Shown: positions 1-22,288 of the stretch, piece by piece | Numbering within the stretch: the first letter of the stretch is position 1 | Layout of the letters: each line of letters starts with the position of its first letter | IMG/VR virus record: IMGVR_UViG_3300023174_000683 | Span: 1 to 22,288 of that record | Source of the DNA: a virus | Direction: 5' to 3' (one strand) | DNA length: 22,288 nucleotides | Made by a program: the position numbers and the translations under genes | The notes under the pieces: model-generated | The model's database searches: none | Told to the model about the DNA's origin: nothing | The model's input: only the letters and a program-made list of their open reading frames with translations

Positions 1-482
1 GTGACCCCGTCCTCCACCGTCAGCACAATGACCCGGTCAAAGTGGTAGTGATTGATCAGGCTCTGCACATCCATCATCACCTTCAAACTGCTGGCGCAGG
101 CCGATGAGTCGGTGGTGACCATGTCCATGTTGCCAAACGCCTGCGCGGTACGGCCAGCGTAAACCTGCGTCAGCGTGAACGGCAAAAACTTGTAGACATA
201 GTTCAGGCTGTTGTTGGGGTAGGGGCGCTGGTTGATTCCGGCAAAGTGCGCGTTACCAGCCGCCAGAATGAACGCGGTCTTGCCGACCTGATTCTCACGA
301 AGGTAAGTCAGCAACTCGGGGTCAAGCACTTTCTCGGCGAGTTTATGCGGGGCATAGAACATCCCGGTCTTGGCACGAGCATAGGTGTCAGGGAACCAGT
401 GAGCCTTCTGTGGATAGACGATGTCGTCAAACAGCGCGGCCTCGGTGGTCGATGCGGTGCGGTAGTGGGTCAGGTAGATCAC
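1..482 (-). CDS. Beta-ketoacyl-ACP synthase-like protein (ketosynthase), 3' end outside the window
   Basis: About 160 residues of a longer protein are present; the ORF is still open at base 1. Around residues 123-134 it reads TTDSSACASSLK, the ketosynthase nucleophile region, with C129 as the expected acyl-accepting cysteine. The following helix and the strand ending LTVEDG (154-159) fit the thiolase-fold pattern seen in FabF/FabB. The N-terminal part is shorter and more divergent than in bacterial FabF. The start is GTG at 482-480, overlapping the stop of the ACP gene as GTGA, with AAGGAG eight bases upstream. By family, such enzymes condense an acyl chain with malonyl-ACP; the adjacent ACP gene is the obvious carrier. 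The histidines of the catalytic triad would lie beyond the window, so activity cannot be judged. The substrate and the role in infection are unknown. Confidence 0.75.
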   Translation of the reverse strand, partial: MIYLTHYRTASTTEAALFDDIVYPQKAHWFPDTYARAKTGMFYAPHKLAEKVLDPELLTYLRENQVGKTAFILAAGNAHFAGINQRPYPNNSLNYVYKFLPFTLTQVYAGRTAQAFGNMDMVTTDSSACASSLKVMMDVQSLINHYHFDRVIVLTVEDGV

Positions 483-763
483 TTGATCTGCTCCTTGGCC
501 TTTTCGACAGACTCAGGCTCCATCGTCTTGTGAGCCATGATCTGGTCATGCACTTCCTGCACCGTGGTGGGGTGCCACTCTTTGGAGGTCTCGTCATCGA
601 TCCCATACAACTCGGTCAGATACATCATCATTACCAGACCGTCGAGGCTGTCAATCCCGAGATCGGCCATCTTGTCTTCCATCGAAGACGCGGGTGTAAA
701 TGACATATGCACGGGCTTTGCCACCCGTGCCACCATGTTGAATAGTTCGATGAAGTCAGTCAT
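479..763 (-). CDS. Acyl carrier protein
   Basis: A 94-residue acidic protein with the ACP signature LGIDSLDG at residues 35-42. S39 is the expected attachment serine for 4'-phosphopantetheine. Helix I fits residues 2-16, helix II is the unusually Met-rich stretch GLVMMMYLTELYGI after the serine, and TTVQEVHDQI resembles the usual ACP C-terminal helix. The length is close to that of bacterial AcpP plus a short charged tail. It overlaps the preceding 86-residue gene as ATGA and the ketosynthase gene as GTGA, so the ACP and synthase are likely made together. To work it would need a host phosphopantetheinyl transferase, since none is visible here. I infer it carries the acyl chain for the neighbouring synthase. 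Confidence 0.9.
   Translation of the reverse strand: MTDFIELFNMVARVAKPVHMSFTPASSMEDKMADLGIDSLDGLVMMMYLTELYGIDDETSKEWHPTTVQEVHDQIMAHKTMEPESVEKAKEQIK
491..496 (-). promoter_or_regulatory. Ribosome binding site setting the GTG start of the ketosynthase gene
   Basis: On the minus strand this reads AAGGAG, eight bases before the GTG at 482. It lies inside the last codons of the ACP gene. Together with the GTGA overlap it supports GTG as the real start and suggests translational coupling of the two genes. Confidence 0.7.
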
Positions 764-1020
764 TGTTCTGGTCGCTCTGTCGGCTGATTTATGGCTCCAA
801 CCAAGGCCGAAGCCCAGTCTTGCCAGTCGTTATAGGTGTAGGGGCCGGGGATGCCTTCATTTGTGAAAACATCAATTGCCTTTAACCCGGATGCCCACTC
901 CTGCCAGTTTGTTTGTGCATTTGGAACAGCCAGTTGCTGTCCCGCGTATGCCTCGCACATGAGCGCCGCCCACGACTCGAAAGTGTGATACCGAGGATCG
1001 TAGACAACAGCCAATGCCAT
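760..1020 (-). CDS. Trp-rich small protein, probably tail-associated
   Basis: An 86-residue protein that I know only as a conserved phage hypothetical. It shows three degenerate copies of an aromatic-x-x-Trp-Ala motif: FESWA at 14-18, WQEWA at 39-43 and WQDWA at 66-70. The last two are followed by similar hydrophobic helices, and a GIPGP turn sits between them. The start ATG at 1020 has GAGG upstream and lies one base after the stop of the nozzle gene. Its stop overlaps the ACP start as ATGA. The position directly after the nozzle gene suggests a tail role, but the coupling to ACP leaves a link with the acyl system possible. No function can be assigned. Confidence 0.8.
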   Translation of the reverse strand: MALAVVYDPRYHTFESWAALMCEAYAGQQLAVPNAQTNWQEWASGLKAIDVFTNEGIPGPYTYNDWQDWASALVGAINQPTERPEQ

Positions 1021-1021
1021 A

Positions 1022-2839
1022 TTACGGCCTCACATCGCCAATGTTGGCGTGCAACAGAACTTTGCCCAACTGGTAATTGCCGCCCTGCACATTGCTCGTA
1101 AAGATCAAGCGCAATTCGCGGCGTTGCTCACGCAAGTCAATTTTGCGCGTATCAGGATCAAACGGGTACGGCGCTGAAGTCACATCCTCTGCTTGGGCAA
1201 ACGCTCGGCCAGTGACTTGAAAGGTCATCTCTCCAGACTGGATGAAGTCAGGCTCCATGCGCTCCAAGTGCAACCAGTAGTTGTCACCAACCGGGGTTGT
1301 CTGCGAAGGCCCACCCTGCACCCAACCAAGGTCGGATGTCTGGAAGTAACTTTCAATGGCATTGGTTCTGTCGCCAATAACTTCGTCTGTTCCAATTTCG
1401 TGTTGCCACAAAGACACCCGACCGGGCACAGTTGTAAATTCAGCATCAACTGGACTTGCCTCTGTTGATGTTGCGTTTTCGCTCATGGTTACATCAAAGT
1501 AACCCGGAGTTGCACTGGGCGCGATTGCCAAAATAGAAGCGCCGTCGGGTACAGACACGCAATCTTTGATCAGCAAGCCAATTGCAATCTGGTTTGTGAT
1601 CGGCACTTTGATGACCGCATTTCCAGACACCGATGTAATGGTGGTGGTCAACACAGTCTCCGCAACAGAAAGGTCTACGCCCGCGTTGATTGGGTACTTG
1701 AACACCTGAGAGAAGTACCCGGCGGTGCGACGAGAGCCGAGAGCCTGACCGCCGTCGTACCAGCAGTTCTCGCGAATGTTGTAAATGATGCAGTCGTTGC
1801 ATTCTTCGGAGTCGCCCGAAGGGTAGAACCACCAAATCTCACCAAAGCGAGGCACTTTCGTTGCCCACACTTTTTGGCGTTGGGCGTAGTTCAGGTTGTC
1901 AAAGAAGTAGTTCTGGTTGAAGTCGTTCTTGAGTTCTTTGACCACGCCGTTATACAGCAGGAATCGGTCAACGCCAATCCAGTAGTAAATGCCGTCGTAC
2001 TCAATGACGCACTGGCTTGAAAGGATCGATGACTGGCTAGAAATGATGTCGTAGCGCCAGTAAAAAGTTTCTGGGGTTCCGGCCACCGTTACGGTTGTCG
2101 GCGTGTACGAAACCCGAATCAAAGAATCCAGCGCCCAGAACAAGCCCGAAGGCGCGTTTGAGCCGCCTCGAACGGGTAGACCTTTGACAATTTTGGTGGA
2201 GGCCACATTGGTCTCGTTGGAGTCCGGGCCGTTCCAGTTGAACGGGTCGCCTGCGGTACTGTTTTTGATAAGGCCGTTATCTCCATACACAAAAACATAG
2301 GGGTGGAGAACAACCACCCCGCCAGACACTTCAATTGGATCACCAGTTGGTGATGGGCCGTTTGTATCGGTCAACTGCGCCAGTGTTGTGCCGTTAATAT
2401 CGCCAGCAAGAACAGGAGTTACTGCCGTCTGATCAATCTGCGCCAAATTTTGGCCGGGGTGAGCCAACAACAGTTGATTCCCAGTCCCTTGCGAGTCGAA
2501 AAGCGAATCGAATTGCCAGAGATTTAAGTCTGATGGCGTGAAGTTTGACAGCGTAAATTGGTTAATGCCCGCACCAACACCGTTGTTGTCAATTGCCAAA
2601 ACTTCAAGGCCATCGTTGTAGCCGTTAAAAATTTGGTTAATGCCATCAACCGAGTTGACATAGATTCCACGAGAGTAACCGTGAGCATCGCCAACAATCT
2701 GACGGTAGCCACCGATCTTGCGCGGACGACCGCGCTGAAACCTTACCCACCGACCATCGGTGTAAAAGTTCATGTCAAAGATCGTCCCGTCCCGTTGCAC
2801 TCCGGGCTGGGTGTCGATGGCAAATACCTTCTTGGTCAT
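1022..2839 (-). CDS. Tail nozzle / DNA stabilisation protein, P22 gp10-like
   Basis: A 605-residue protein with the opening typical of the P22 gp10 (stabilisation protein) group: a DGRWVRF motif near residue 28 followed by GRPRKIGGYR at 37-46. Repeated segments with aromatic strands (for example FWALDSLIRVSY and YYWIGVDRFLLYNG) fit a beta-propeller. In P22 this protein caps the gp4 ring and closes the tail channel. Residues of about 391-471 look like a separate small beta-domain inserted into the propeller, with the pattern IGLLIKDCVSVPDGASILAI seen in phage fibre modules. The start ATG overlaps the stop of the fibre gene as TGATG. The nozzle role is inferred from motif and context. Confidence 0.8.
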   Translation of the reverse strand: MTKKVFAIDTQPGVQRDGTIFDMNFYTDGRWVRFQRGRPRKIGGYRQIVGDAHGYSRGIYVNSVDGINQIFNGYNDGLEVLAIDNNGVGAGINQFTLSNFTPSDLNLWQFDSLFDSQGTGNQLLLAHPGQNLAQIDQTAVTPVLAGDINGTTLAQLTDTNGPSPTGDPIEVSGGVVVLHPYVFVYGDNGLIKNSTAGDPFNWNGPDSNETNVASTKIVKGLPVRGGSNAPSGLFWALDSLIRVSYTPTTVTVAGTPETFYWRYDIISSQSSILSSQCVIEYDGIYYWIGVDRFLLYNGVVKELKNDFNQNYFFDNLNYAQRQKVWATKVPRFGEIWWFYPSGDSEECNDCIIYNIRENCWYDGGQALGSRRTAGYFSQVFKYPINAGVDLSVAETVLTTTITSVSGNAVIKVPITNQIAIGLLIKDCVSVPDGASILAIAPSATPGYFDVTMSENATSTEASPVDAEFTTVPGRVSLWQHEIGTDEVIGDRTNAIESYFQTSDLGWVQGGPSQTTPVGDNYWLHLERMEPDFIQSGEMTFQVTGRAFAQAEDVTSAPYPFDPDTRKIDLREQRRELRLIFTSNVQGGNYQLGKVLLHANIGDVRP

Positions 2840-4412: not shown

Positions 4413-5048
4413 TCAGGTATCCAATACTGCGGCTTGACGGTCACCAATACGCTGGACATCCTCTTGCTTGAGGGTCTGCATGATCTGGTCGTAGTTGGCC
4501 TGCCACATGGGCATCCGCTCGTCGTTCTTCAAGAACGGCATAGCCTGCAACAAAGACCCATACAGAAGCGCCTGCGGGGCGTAAATGGTGAACCAGTTTG
4601 TCTGGTTGGAAGAATCGAGCGGCTGGATGCGCTCGTAGTACAGAACCTCGAAGTTGTAATCGACATCGGGTGTGGGAACGACCAACCAATGGGTGTAGTC
4701 GTAATCGCCGTAGTACACAGGGGTGCCCGTCTGGGTGGCATCGGGCCAGTACTCGCGCAGGTACTCGTACTTGCGCAGGAGGACAGGCTGGCGGCTACCG
4801 TTGACCACCACATTCATGGACACCGTTTTGTGCCAACGGGCGGGCTTGTCAATGATGGCTTGGGTGGCCGTCATCGTGCTGGTATTGACCGTCAGGTTCC
4901 CGAGGAACTTGATCTGGCTGGCGATGATCTGCTCGGCCAGCATGATGAAAAGGGGGATTTTTTCGAGGGTGGCGGTGTCTGACCGCTCCAGATAGGACTG
5001 GATATTTTCGACCAAACTGTCATAAGTCATAACACTAGCGGTCGTCAT
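4413..5048 (-). CDS. Phage adaptor protein, SU10-type
   Basis: A 211-residue protein with the layout of the phage adaptor (gp6-like) group: an N-terminal helical pair (SLVENIQSYLERSD, then LAEQIIASQIKFLG), a middle region with GTPVYYGDYDY and LVVPTPDVDYNFEVLYYE, and a C-terminal helical part beginning YAPQALLYGSLLQAMP. Members form a ring between portal and tail nozzle. The ATG at 5048 has GAGGTG upstream; a second ATG seven codons in is possible but lacks a better site. It is followed two bases later (TGATCATG) by the fibre gene and then the nozzle. Why there is both this gene and a gp4-like one at 13178 is unclear; they may form two different rings. Confidence 0.7.
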   Translation of the reverse strand: MTTASVMTYDSLVENIQSYLERSDTATLEKIPLFIMLAEQIIASQIKFLGNLTVNTSTMTATQAIIDKPARWHKTVSMNVVVNGSRQPVLLRKYEYLREYWPDATQTGTPVYYGDYDYTHWLVVPTPDVDYNFEVLYYERIQPLDSSNQTNWFTIYAPQALLYGSLLQAMPFLKNDERMPMWQANYDQIMQTLKQEDVQRIGDRQAAVLDT

Positions 5049-17188: not shown

Positions 17189-18103
17189 TTACACACCGGG
17201 GGTACCGTACATTGCACGAGGATCAGTGAAACCGACCTGATAACGCTCTGTCGCCTTGTAGCGCATAGAGTCAGTCTCGAAGTCGCCTTCCATTGTCTTC
17301 TCCAACTTACGGCGCATCAGCAACTTCATGCCTTCAGGCGCGTCGGTCTGCACCCACCATGCGGTGGACGAAGTCAGACGGCTGATAACAGCGGCACCCT
17401 CATCCAGCAAGCCGATAGACTTGACGGGGTTGATGTCGTTGTTGGCGTTGCCAGCACGCAGAACGCTCTTCAGGAGAACTTCGGCTTGGAAGACATTACC
17501 GGGAGCGACCACCAGTTGGCGGGGCACCAGACGAATCTTCTTGCCGTTGTTGTCCACAGCCTGACGAATCTGGATCAGCATCTGTTCCAGAGAAGTCTGC
17601 GAAAGGTTCGCGGCAGTAGAGAGCAGGTTGGAGAAAGTGCCGTTCACAATGGGGTGAGAAGCACTGTTCAGAGCCACACCGTCACCGCCGGGGTAAGAGG
17701 CATTGAACGCGCGGTTCAACACATTAGCCGACAGCGTTTCTTTGGTCTCAATCAGAGACTGAGCCAAGTGACGAGCGTAAACCTGACCAATACGGATATG
17801 GTCACCGTCCTCGACCAAAACCTTGGTCAGAGCGAATGCCAAACCAAAGACTTGGTAGACATAACGCTGGAGGAACAGCACGCCACCCTGCTGATAAGAC
17901 ACAGGAGTGCCATCAGGCAGTTGGGGAGCGGCACCAAAACCGTACAGGACGGGTTCTTCGTGGTAGTTACGGGGAATGCCTTCTTGTTCAGTGAAGACAC
18001 GGCTCCATTCATCAGTGCGTTGATCGTATACACCATCAAAGCACTCATTCAGAATGGGTTCAACAATTGACCGAAAGTCGGTACTGCGCATCGGAGCGGC
18101 CAT
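17189..18103 (-). CDS. Major capsid protein, HK97-type
   Basis: A 304-residue protein placed after the scaffold and a decoration-like gene. The pattern FNASYPGGDGVALNSASHPI (about 134-153), the helix LEQMLIQIRQAVDNNGKKI, the strand LVVAPGNVFQAEVLLKS and the end KATERYQVGFTDPRAMYGTP are typical of HK97-fold major head subunits of the short, roughly 300-residue type. It would form the icosahedral shell. No N-terminal delta domain or protease is seen, in line with a separate scaffold gene. Its ribosome binding site is the best in the window, as expected for the most abundant virion protein. Confidence 0.9.
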   Translation of the reverse strand: MAAPMRSTDFRSIVEPILNECFDGVYDQRTDEWSRVFTEQEGIPRNYHEEPVLYGFGAAPQLPDGTPVSYQQGGVLFLQRYVYQVFGLAFALTKVLVEDGDHIRIGQVYARHLAQSLIETKETLSANVLNRAFNASYPGGDGVALNSASHPIVNGTFSNLLSTAANLSQTSLEQMLIQIRQAVDNNGKKIRLVPRQLVVAPGNVFQAEVLLKSVLRAGNANNDINPVKSIGLLDEGAAVISRLTSSTAWWVQTDAPEGMKLLMRRKLEKTMEGDFETDSMRYKATERYQVGFTDPRAMYGTPGV

Positions 18104-19263: not shown

Positions 19264-20247
19264 TTAACTCCTATAACCTTGGTTTTGTTTGGCTTCAATT
19301 GCGTAGCGACGAATCATCTTCGCCCGCTTATCAGGGTCGTCCCACATTCCAGCATCTTTCATGGCTTGGACTTGATCGCGTGTTAACGCGAATTGGTTCT
19401 TGCCAATCACATTACTCGATGCACTCTCGCGGCCTGAACTTGTCACCACATTCCTTGGTCTTGAATTCCGATTCGGTTTCTCGTCGGTATCACCAGTATA
19501 ACGGTGTGGCAAATACTTTTGCAAGCGGTTGTCAAGTTCGTCCCAATACTGCGGAGTCTTGGGGTTCCAACCCTCTTCGGCCATAGCCTGATCGATGGTC
19601 AAAGCAACCCGAGAGTCGGGGTCTTTGCCATTCGGGTCATACCAAGAGTTGTTCTCCATCCAAGTGCTTGCGTACTTCTGCAATTGAGGATCGGGAGCGC
19701 GAATTGTGCGTTCGCGTTGAGGCGCGGTGGCCTTTTTCATTACCGCATCCAGTGCTTCGTACTGTCGGCGGGCCTCGAACCACATTTCTTGCGCAGAAGT
19801 CAGCAATTCACCGTTGCCAGTCTGAGTTGCTTCGGCAATTTTCTGTTTTGCGAACAGAATTCGGTTGGCTTGGTCTTCTTTCGCCTTGTTCAGGCGTGCA
19901 AGATCGCTTCCATGCGACTTTTTCTCCAAAACAGCGAGTCGTTCGAGCAGTTCTTGGTTCTGACGGCTCAAAAAATCGAGTTTGTGGTCTTTTTCGGTCG
20001 CAACTTGCTTGTGGTACTCCTTGCGCTTCTGACGCTTGAGGCGTTTTTGCTCTCGGAGAGCCTCGGCATCGGCGTCAATCTCGCCACCAGCGGCCATTTC
20101 AGCCTCTCTGGCACGATCATCCGCCTCGTCGGAGTCTTCGGTCTCGTTTTGTGTGGGTGACGGGATACTGGGAGGCAACTCGACGGTCGCGGAACCGTCT
20201 TTTTCCTCTTGAATTACGATCACTTCTTGTTCGTTTTCTGTACTCAT
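19264..20247 (-). CDS. Scaffolding protein
   Basis: A 327-residue, highly charged protein that is mostly helical. An acidic N-terminus (residues 1-60, rich in Glu/Asp) is followed by a long coiled coil from about 63 to 165 (LREQKRLKRQKRKEYHKQVA, then LSRQNQELLERLAVLEKKSH), a middle part with YASTWMENNSWYDPNGKDPD and a C-terminal helix-turn-helix-like end (LTRDQVQAMKDAGMWDDPDK) with basic residues. Position before the capsid gene, size and composition fit a head scaffold, which guides shell assembly and then leaves. It overlaps the GroES-like gene as ATGA. No protease motif is visible. Confidence 0.8.
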   Translation of the reverse strand: MSTENEQEVIVIQEEKDGSATVELPPSIPSPTQNETEDSDEADDRAREAEMAAGGEIDADAEALREQKRLKRQKRKEYHKQVATEKDHKLDFLSRQNQELLERLAVLEKKSHGSDLARLNKAKEDQANRILFAKQKIAEATQTGNGELLTSAQEMWFEARRQYEALDAVMKKATAPQRERTIRAPDPQLQKYASTWMENNSWYDPNGKDPDSRVALTIDQAMAEEGWNPKTPQYWDELDNRLQKYLPHRYTGDTDEKPNRNSRPRNVVTSSGRESASSNVIGKNQFALTRDQVQAMKDAGMWDDPDKRAKMIRRYAIEAKQNQGYRS

Positions 20248-20681
20248 ATGAATGCCTTCATTGCAAGGGGATCACCTGTGAGTTTTGCGATGACTTCATG
20301 GTCGTTTAGCACCATGAAGAGGGCTGGGTCTTCGTTTTCATCCTCGCCGGGGACAGGAACCTCCCAGCGGTCGCCGCCCCACTTGGGCACGCGAAGGTAA
20401 TCACCAACCTCACACCATGACCCTTCAGGCCACGGCTCCATCGTGTCGCGCTTTTTGAACGCGAGTGGCCCAATCGCAATCACTTTTGCGACCATGTTCT
20501 GCCACTTCTCAGTTTCTTTGGTCTCTTGAACCAAAACAATCCCGGCACTCGTTACAGTTTTCTTTGTTCGACGCAGTTGAACCAAAATTCTTGCGCCAAG
20601 GGGTTTTGCACCGGGGTCTACAGCAGGAAAGGCTTCCCGCAAATCAGCGGCATTACCCGCTACCGTGCTATCTATCGTCAT
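20244..20681 (-). CDS. GroES-like co-chaperonin (Cpn10)
   Basis: A 145-residue protein with the Cpn10 pattern. GARILVQLRR (29-38) is the first strand. A mobile-loop-like segment ends in SAGIVLVQET (45-54), where IVL at 48-50 is the GroEL-binding tripeptide. VAKVIAIGP is the next strand, and GDYLRVPKWGGDRWEVP with LFMVLNDHEVIAKL form the end of the barrel. It is longer than GroES (about 97 residues) because of a 25-residue N-terminal extension and an acidic insertion (GEDENEDPA). By family it would cap host GroEL; T4 gp31 does this for its capsid protein. Its place directly before scaffold and capsid genes suggests the same job. Confidence 0.85.
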   Translation of the reverse strand: MTIDSTVAGNAADLREAFPAVDPGAKPLGARILVQLRRTKKTVTSAGIVLVQETKETEKWQNMVAKVIAIGPLAFKKRDTMEPWPEGSWCEVGDYLRVPKWGGDRWEVPVPGEDENEDPALFMVLNDHEVIAKLTGDPLAMKAFI

Positions 20682-21030: not shown

Positions 21031-22288
21031 TCATTCTCCTAAGTTGCGTTGGGTAACATTTTGCAGTTTCACAGCAGTCTGCTCCTGCTCTTGCCGTAGT
21101 TTGACTTCGTCTACGGTCAACTCTGCGGTCTTCATTCGCTCTGTCGTGAGGTTGTCCTCGGCGTTCATGGCGATCTTGACCTGACGATCCTTGTCCTTCT
21201 GAGCCATTTCGGCTTGGAATTTCTGCGTATCGAACTGCAAGCGGGCCTGATCTTCTGCGGCACGGCGCTGAGTCTCGGCCATAGACGCCTGCAACACGGC
21301 CTGTGCCTCGCCATCCATAGGCGGTGCGGGCGGTTTGAACTGTTGCATGATCTGACCGAGTTGCTCCAGCGCAGGCAACAGCCCTTGGAACACCTCTTCG
21401 GTGTCCATTGAGAGGTGCGTAGACGCCAAAGCAATCGCGTTGTCGATCTGCTTGACCAGTTTGCTGTCCTCGTACTTACCAAACTGCACACCTGTGTCGC
21501 CTTGGACATAGGTAGACATCTGGTTGGTGTACCAGAGCATCATGTGTTGCTTGATGTGTTCCAGCACATTGGGGATAAATTTTGGCGCGATCAAGCGGTT
21601 TGATCCCAAAGCGGGATCAAGCGCAAAGGCCAAGTGGGCTTGAATGTGGGCCAACTGATCCTGACGCGGGTAGGCGAAGGCTGGTCGGCCCAATGCCATA
21701 GCGGAATTCTCGTCTGCGGCATTCATCTCCGCAGGCTTGCTGGCATTTGGGATCAACTCGTTCACATTGGGAATCTTCAACTGCTTGAGCATCCGGTTCA
21801 CAACGGCACGCTGATCAAAAATCTGCGGGAACGCTTGCGACAATTGCAACACCGACTGCATCTGAGCCACGCGCTGGGTCTCAGAGAAGATGTGGGGATC
21901 ACTTACAGGGATAATGTCGCTGTTGCGCTTGAAGTCTTCGCGCTTCACAGGCAACTCTGCCACCACATCGCCGCGCTTTTGCTCGTCCAGATACCAACGG
22001 TTCAAGCGGCCAATGATGCCGATCACGCGGCGCTGGCTCTCATGCAGGCGCGAGTGAATCGAAGAGAACACCACAGCACCTTGCTCGATCAACGCCTGCG
22101 TTGTGCCCACAGGCATCGTGGACTTGGCATCGGCAATCTTCTCCTCTGCGGTGGTCACCACACCCTTGGCGGCGTCGGTGATCCAGCCCAGCAACTGGAA
22201 CAGCACAGGCGAAGGCGGGTTGAACGGCATGGGCATCGCAATCTTGCGGATGTCGTCCACGCCGGGGGCGCTTTCCACCTCGGTGACT
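21031..22288 (-). CDS. Portal protein, N-terminal part outside the window
   Basis: At least 418 residues of the C-terminal part of a portal protein are visible; the frame stays open to the window edge, so the GTG at 22278-22276 is not the real start. FNPPSPVLFQLLGWI, then IHSRLHESQRRVIGIIGRLN, VSDPHIFSETQRVAQMQSVL and VVNRMLKQLKIPNVNELIP fit the crown and helical barrel region of P22-type portals. The last 90 residues form a long charged coiled coil (ASMAETQRRAAEDQARLQFD onward). The portal is the DNA entry ring to which terminase and the adaptor bind. The terminase genes should lie beyond the right edge. Confidence 0.85.
   Translation of the reverse strand, partial: VTEVESAPGVDDIRKIAMPMPFNPPSPVLFQLLGWITDAAKGVVTTAEEKIADAKSTMPVGTTQALIEQGAVVFSSIHSRLHESQRRVIGIIGRLNRWYLDEQKRGDVVAELPVKREDFKRNSDIIPVSDPHIFSETQRVAQMQSVLQLSQAFPQIFDQRAVVNRMLKQLKIPNVNELIPNASKPAEMNAADENSAMALGRPAFAYPRQDQLAHIQAHLAFALDPALGSNRLIAPKFIPNVLEHIKQHMMLWYTNQMSTYVQGDTGVQFGKYEDSKLVKQIDNAIALASTHLSMDTEEVFQGLLPALEQLGQIMQQFKPPAPPMDGEAQAVLQASMAETQRRAAEDQARLQFDTQKFQAEMAQKDKDRQVKIAMNAEDNLTTERMKTAELTVDEVKLRQEQEQTAVKLQNVTQRNLGE

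Follow-up and report, generated by a model that had tools for sequence, protein, structure and literature searches.

Toxin-activating acyltransferases of the HlyC/ApxC type have a GNAT fold without the CoA-contacting elements and take their acyl chain from acyl-ACP (PMC8339906), and in a related system CdiC of class IV CDI lipidates the delivered protein (PMC8510554). In many podoviruses a gp13-type GNAT occurs beside the ejection proteins; a study of cobaviruses took the GNAT next to their internal virion proteins as the counterpart of T7 gp13, and morphogenesis of the virion is the only role suggested (PMC6775973). In T7 itself, gene 13 lies between gene 12, which encodes the nozzle, and internal protein gene 14. 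Phage genes for acyl carrier proteins (ACPs) have already been reported (PMC5463345, PMC11705849), as has fabG-acpP-fabF in roseobacter prophages (PMC8224337).

Here we analyse a viral locus in which known protein classes occur in an arrangement and context that we did not find described. Within the open-access literature, we found no description of a virion operon with a unit of ACP, ketosynthase (KS) and GNAT and no phage with a virion-linked set of acyl-chain enzymes, the phrases phage ketosynthase and phage-encoded ACP gave no match, and a survey of freshwater phages (PMC6802176) makes no mention of ACP, KS or the GNAT-fold gene described below.

Results

The window, by which we mean the whole 22,288-base IMG/VR fragment analysed, holds the bulk of one virion operon on its minus strand, where all of the following genes lie. 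The operon runs from the portal protein gene (partial, 21031..22287, database match) at the other end of the fragment through the major capsid protein (17189..18103, 77-89% identical to those of Caulobacter phages RW/RLK and Manatee Spring phage MW202545), fibres, an SU10-type tail adaptor (4413..5048, profile match) and a nozzle-like virion structural protein (1022..2839, PHROG 3287) to an 86-residue ORF termed S86 (760..1020), the ACP (479..763) and the KS (3..482), which is cut by the contig end. The S86 stop overlaps the ACP start in ATGA (760-763), and the ACP stop overlaps the KS start in GTGA (479..482), as in translational coupling; an AAGGAG ribosome-binding site (491..496) lies 8 nt 5' of the KS GTG start. 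With these 4-nt overlaps between neighbours, the coupling of ACP and KS within a late virion operon claimed in a preliminary description is upheld, and its coordinates, motifs and residues for the pair proved correct on re-reading. Its placement of the pair at the end of the operon did not hold, as the operon of relatives continues through a further gene, G3, and through genes for internal proteins; the end in the window is apparent because the contig edge cuts KS. Promoter and terminator signals around ACP-KS did not rise above those of shuffled sequence, so that the pair appears to belong to the late operon, and neither a promoter/terminator of its own nor a host-like gene, the marks of a phage moron or auxiliary metabolic gene, was found for it. 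Elsewhere in the window, a GroES-like co-chaperonin gene (145 aa, 20244-20681, minus strand) adjoins the portal gene; MW202545 and QDWS535 have equivalents, which carry the annotation chaperonin 10 kd subunit / GroES.

The window ACP (94 aa) carries LGIDSLDG with the phosphopantetheine-site serine S39 (DSLD), as judged from the ORF and profile matches. Taken alone it is a weak Pfam match, with 14.1 bits against a PP-binding cut-off of 20.8, and it also matches TIGR00517 (E 6e-5) and the PHROG 'acyl carrier protein' (E 0.0016). A scan of viral contigs gave 12 ACP relatives, and homologues retain DSL-D; the serine is present in all 144 distinct copies, within DSLD in 143 and DSMD in one.

The KS fragment in the window comprises the first 160 residues, with TDSSACASS and active-site C129, and scores 22.8 bits on Pfam ketoacyl-synt against a cut-off of 20.8. 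The scan of viral contigs gave 150 KS relatives, and the full-length protein, 371 aa in locus L014, scores 41.9 bits on ketoacyl-synt and 47.4 bits on Ketoacyl-synt_C, both above the 20.8 gathering score. Alignment with cellular KS proteins places C129, H271, K299 and H304 at FabF C163, H303, K335 and H340. The C129/H271/H304 triad and K299 were invariant in the first set of KS sequences; over all loci gathered (164 distinct sequences, 142 full length), the Cys and both His are kept in 142/142 distinct full-length copies, with ten exceptions being misses of a stricter pattern (K[SC]HGTGT, ACTS or VDSSAC) in which Cys and His are present on reading. The predicted structure (mean pLDDT 70, weak at 11-52 and 78-104) aligns with Streptococcus pneumoniae FabF over 340 residues with Z 31.7, which indicates a double thiolase fold. 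Thus the catalytic His residues and complete thiolase-type fold that the preliminary description sought beyond base 1 are found in the relatives, the fold as a prediction. An inactive or decoy KS was ruled out by the invariant triad and a dN/dS of 0.08.

Several features set this KS apart from its cellular counterparts. Residues 11-98 are phage-specific, and the alignment bears out the early remark that the N-terminal part is unlike FabF, the first 98 residues being largely particular to the phages. Matches of the L014 protein to FabF structures fall mostly from residue 99 onward, and matches to cellular proteins mostly begin near that residue. The gate reads AAGMG where FabF has FGFGG, and the HGTGT motif is present; with 102 bits on TIGR03150 against an equivalog score of 494, and FGFGG missing, the protein falls outside FabF (KAS II) proper. 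Identity to cellular KS proteins is 24-32%, the best match among 296 genomes being 28% over residues 99-336, and phage copies are 59-100% identical. At no more than ~32% identity to any cellular KS, the phage gene is not a recent host copy, and a recent host capture of fabF-acpP was rejected on these values. Phage MW202545 (ctpbd312, Manatee Spring) and BFVD entry A0A6J7X0R1 belong to the same family, with the KS automatically annotated as 3-oxoacyl-ACP synthase / FabB; in MW202545 the ACP and G3 are annotated as hypothetical. Besides A0A6J7X0R1, three BFVD matches at E < 0.001 comprise one phage type-I/II-like KS and two type III PKS.

The gene order nozzle, S86, ACP, KS, G3 and INT, an amphipathic protein gene, recurs in all loci on long enough contigs, save for the ACP-KS losses named below. 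An adjacent ACP accompanies KS in 201/201 loci and an adjacent G3 in 197/197, counts that include some loci on overlapping contigs and events that are not independent. G3 occurs without ACP and KS in at least three lineages, namely L186, L282 and the L290/L342/L343/L344 group, the last of which has sisters (L284-L286, L345, L349) that carry ACP-KS. In L282:3024-3146 a decayed KS C-terminus (KIGH...GLL.TL.LLDN) lies directly 5' of an intact G3, and this apparent remnant is a loss of ACP-KS. Since KS is always found with G3 and G3 sometimes alone, ACP-KS appears dependent on G3, not the reverse. Caulobacter phage RLK, whose capsid is 77% identical, has an S86 homologue adjoining its nozzle gene and other virion genes, and ACP, KS and G3 are all absent.

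A further comparison comes from L108, a phage contig from the bin of a Balneolaceae MAG, which carries ACP-KS-G3-INT with a KS 59% identical. Its major head protein family, phrog_9953, differs from that of the window, and L108 has no detectable match to the window capsid, portal or nozzle. The presence of the block alongside an unrelated capsid family suggests that it travels as a unit. Values of dN/dS across ACP, KS and G3 are 0.070-0.083, indicating strong purifying selection. Distance correlations (Mantel r) are 0.87 for KS-ACP, 0.73 for G3-ACP, 0.56 for ACP-nozzle and 0.49 for G3-nozzle. Small W-rich or D-W repeated-module proteins, mutually dissimilar in sequence, stand 5' of ACP in both phage types (window 760-1020; L108:7361-7708).

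G3, which the preliminary description missed, is a gene of ~149 codons directly 3' of KS in the relatives. The protein has no Pfam or PHROG match, and its AlphaFold model (pLDDT 90) shows a GNAT fold. Every one of the 50 best-matching PDB chains belongs to a GNAT-type acetyltransferase or acyltransferase (Z 9.8-11.5, best RimI at 11.5), and BFVD matches include a podovirus 'internal virion protein A'. Motif A for the CoA pyrophosphate, Q/R-x-x-G-x-G/A, is missing; between beta4 (66-73) and alpha3 (from 77) only three residues of the CoA-pyrophosphate loop remain, A-D-[TS], and they belong to an N-A-D motif that is nearly invariant. Lacking this loop, G3 is a GNAT-fold protein and not a canonical acetyltransferase. 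The related phages Roseobacter CRP-901 and Alcaligenes QDWS535, without ACP or KS, have annotated GNATs at the G3 position with loops of the R-x-x-x-x-[AF] type (R-x-x-x-x-A in CRP-901, whose GNAT passes the Pfam GNAT cut-offs); G3 shares fold and position with these proteins and no detectable sequence homology. Similarly, G3 gave no match to PF11090, the T7 gp13 comparison reached an hhalign probability below 1, and no HlyC-type Pfam family was listed at E up to 5. Given no sequence match to gp13, G3 as modelled resembles T7 gp13 in fold and position and is not a member of its family.

H59 and D75 of G3 are conserved in most copies and form a candidate His/Asp pair; H59 is present in 121/126 distinct G3 sequences from KS-bearing loci and is Ile or ambiguous in the other five. 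A strict H59-D75 dyad was considered and is not claimed, in view of these five and of the secondary structure, in which H59 and D75 lie at opposite ends of the beta3-beta4 hairpin. Position 59 is Q or N in L290, L342 and L343, which have lost ACP-KS, and His in the sisters L284-L286, L345 and L349; L344, also without ACP-KS, keeps His. By these sequences, a link between loss of H59 in three of the four L290-group members and loss of ACP-KS is suggestive only. A role for G3 as a malonyl-ACP decarboxylase like MadA was discarded, because the GNAT domain of MadA is not the decarboxylase (PMC8666670).

Beyond G3 lie INT and then further internal-protein-like genes, the last of which encodes a transglycosylase-like protein. 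INT is presumably an internal or ejection protein. Nearly every copy starts with M-[SG]-[AG]-[VI] (for example at L014:11562), followed by an amphipathic V/G/D/E repeat; once the Met is removed, the small second residue would leave Ser or Gly exposed. A 1337-aa protein encoded in the virion operon between terminase and portal (L094:18528-20000; record G004 38528-42541, minus strand) scores 51.8 bits in Pfam for a GDSL lipase/acylhydrolase domain and is a candidate acyl-removing enzyme in the same phages. In the Balneolaceae-MAG phage (L340:14648-15346), a protein of 232 residues encoded close to the tail genes resembles a 2OG-Fe(II) oxygenase by eye, and HTVC023P has several annotated 2OG oxygenases in the same neighbourhood.

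Further acyl-chain genes, whose presence the preliminary description had anticipated, were only partly borne out: the acyltransferase-like G3 follows KS, but other enzymes of fatty-acid synthesis were not found. No phosphopantetheinyl transferase of the AcpS type was detected in 11 near-complete phage records, and no FabG-type reductase or FabD/AT-type acyltransferase in 12; positive controls matched in these searches. The twelfth record, the Balneolaceae MAG, contains cellular phosphopantetheinyl transferases and stands outside the AcpS count. A complete phage fatty-acid synthase was rejected on these results, which make general fatty-acid synthesis by the phage unlikely. With no phage AcpS found, a host enzyme would be required for the ACP to carry 4'-phosphopantetheine, and from gene content the phage would also need host malonyl-ACP and acyl-ACP.

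Discussion

We tentatively favour, at somewhat less than even probability, a reading in which the window contains the 5' portion of an acyl-transfer cassette of three genes, ACP-KS-G3, located in the late tail/ejection operon of a family of uncultured short-tailed phages. On this reading KS and ACP would provide acyl-ACP as the donor, and G3 would transfer the chain to a virion or ejection protein. Host AcpS would load phosphopantetheine onto S39 of the ACP. The phage KS would then take host malonyl- and acyl-thioesters and, on the phage ACP, make or select one acyl chain, perhaps a 3-ketoacyl chain. G3, in the T7 gp13 position and with its CoA pyrophosphate loop lost, may accept this chain from acyl-ACP as HlyC/ApxC do and pass it to a protein of the phage, with the amphipathic INT encoded next as the most likely acceptor; the acylation could aid particle assembly or passage of DNA through the membrane. 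Synteny, the obligate linkage of KS, intact catalytic residues, predicted folds, purifying selection and the missing fatty-acid genes all speak for this cassette. Overall, they suggest that a lipid-like chain is put on the phage's own protein, rather than host metabolism simply being altered, and INT is the obvious candidate acceptor. Of the roles offered in the preliminary description, acylation of a virion protein appears from the sequences to fit best, and a change in host lipids less well.

Several points weigh against the cassette. G3 persists in lineages that lack ACP and KS and is therefore not reliant on the phage pair; its donor could be host acyl-ACP, or it may have no enzymatic role. 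As judged from the alignments, G3 is without a sequence match to HlyC or T7 gp13, and its H59 is not strictly conserved. Finally, vertical inheritance from one insertion site could by itself account for the linkage. A more specific version of the acyl-transfer reading is possible, if doubtful: KS and ACP would make a particular chain, and a gp13-like GNAT that has come to use acyl-ACP in place of CoA would acylate an ejection protein, perhaps INT on a Lys or at its conserved M-[SG]-A N-terminus, thereby lipid-anchoring the DNA-delivery channel.

Rather unlikely, but the foremost alternative, is that ACP and KS are auxiliary metabolic genes that alter or boost host fatty-acid or phospholipid synthesis, with the neighbourhood of G3 a chance insertion site. 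Phage ACP and fabF-type genes have been described as metabolic (PMC8224337, PMC11705849, PMC5463345), and the KS retains the FabF-type triad. Against this stand the translational coupling of ACP-KS to late virion genes with no sign of its own promoter or terminator, the failure to find FabG, FabD and AcpS, the 24-32% identity to cellular KS proteins, at which no recent host copy is seen, and the constant company of G3 even in phages with another capsid type.

Independent action, with G3 serving in assembly as a gp13-like factor and ACP-KS retained through its position as an accessory pair unrelated to it, we regard as unlikely. It would account for the several phages that have G3 without ACP-KS and for the related podoviruses with a GNAT at the G3 position and neither ACP nor KS. 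Yet KS never occurs without adjacent G3 (197/197), even with another head module; Caulobacter phage RLK is without all three together; and ACP distances track those of G3 and KS (0.73 and 0.87) more than those of the nozzle (0.56).

Improbable, too, is a minimal ketide synthase in which KS and ACP, with G3 for loading or release, yield a short beta-ketoacyl signal, inhibitor or released small molecule. The HGTGT motif with the AAGMG gate suggests a changed substrate, and the missing AcpS, FabG and FabD leave a two-protein elongation unit, but neither a reductase nor a malonyl-transferase partner was found in the relatives, no release partner was seen, and the virion-operon placement would go unexplained. 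Least probable is a structural role, with acyl-ACP and a KS dimer as chaperone or scaffold parts for tail or ejection-protein assembly and no product released, for although ACP-KS sits among morphogenesis genes and ACP is a structural subunit in mitochondrial complex I, a pure scaffold needs neither the catalytic residues kept in 142/142 copies nor strong purifying selection.

If ACP and KS do feed G3, the locus would offer a direct test of the function of a gp13-like protein and would define a phage protein-lipidation step of possible importance for DNA delivery across membranes. It also cautions that not every phage acpP or fabF gene amounts to 'auxiliary metabolism'.

Reported phage acpP and fabF genes occur in host-like fabG-acpP-fabF prophage clusters or as lone ACP genes, not in a conserved ACP-KS-GNAT unit of the virion operon. 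The phage KS is like FabF/KAS II in both Pfam KS domains, the Cys-His-His and Lys residues and the predicted fold (Z 31.7 over 340 residues), and unlike it in a structural-alignment identity of ~22%, a length shorter by ~40 residues, the phage-specific stretch 11-98 and the AAGMG gate. G3 shares with T7 gp13 and phage GNATs the position between nozzle and internal proteins, the size and a GNAT-type fold, whereas phages of the gp13 type have no ACP or KS at that place and their proteins do not match G3 in sequence. HlyC, ApxC and CdiC differ in using host ACP with, as far as these two studies state, no ketosynthase of their own (PMC8339906, PMC8510554), and they bear no sequence relation to G3. 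What the toxin-activating acyltransferases have in common with G3 is a GNAT fold without CoA-contacting elements and an adjoining protein that meets membranes, and for G3, as for them, an acyl-ACP donor would be expected.
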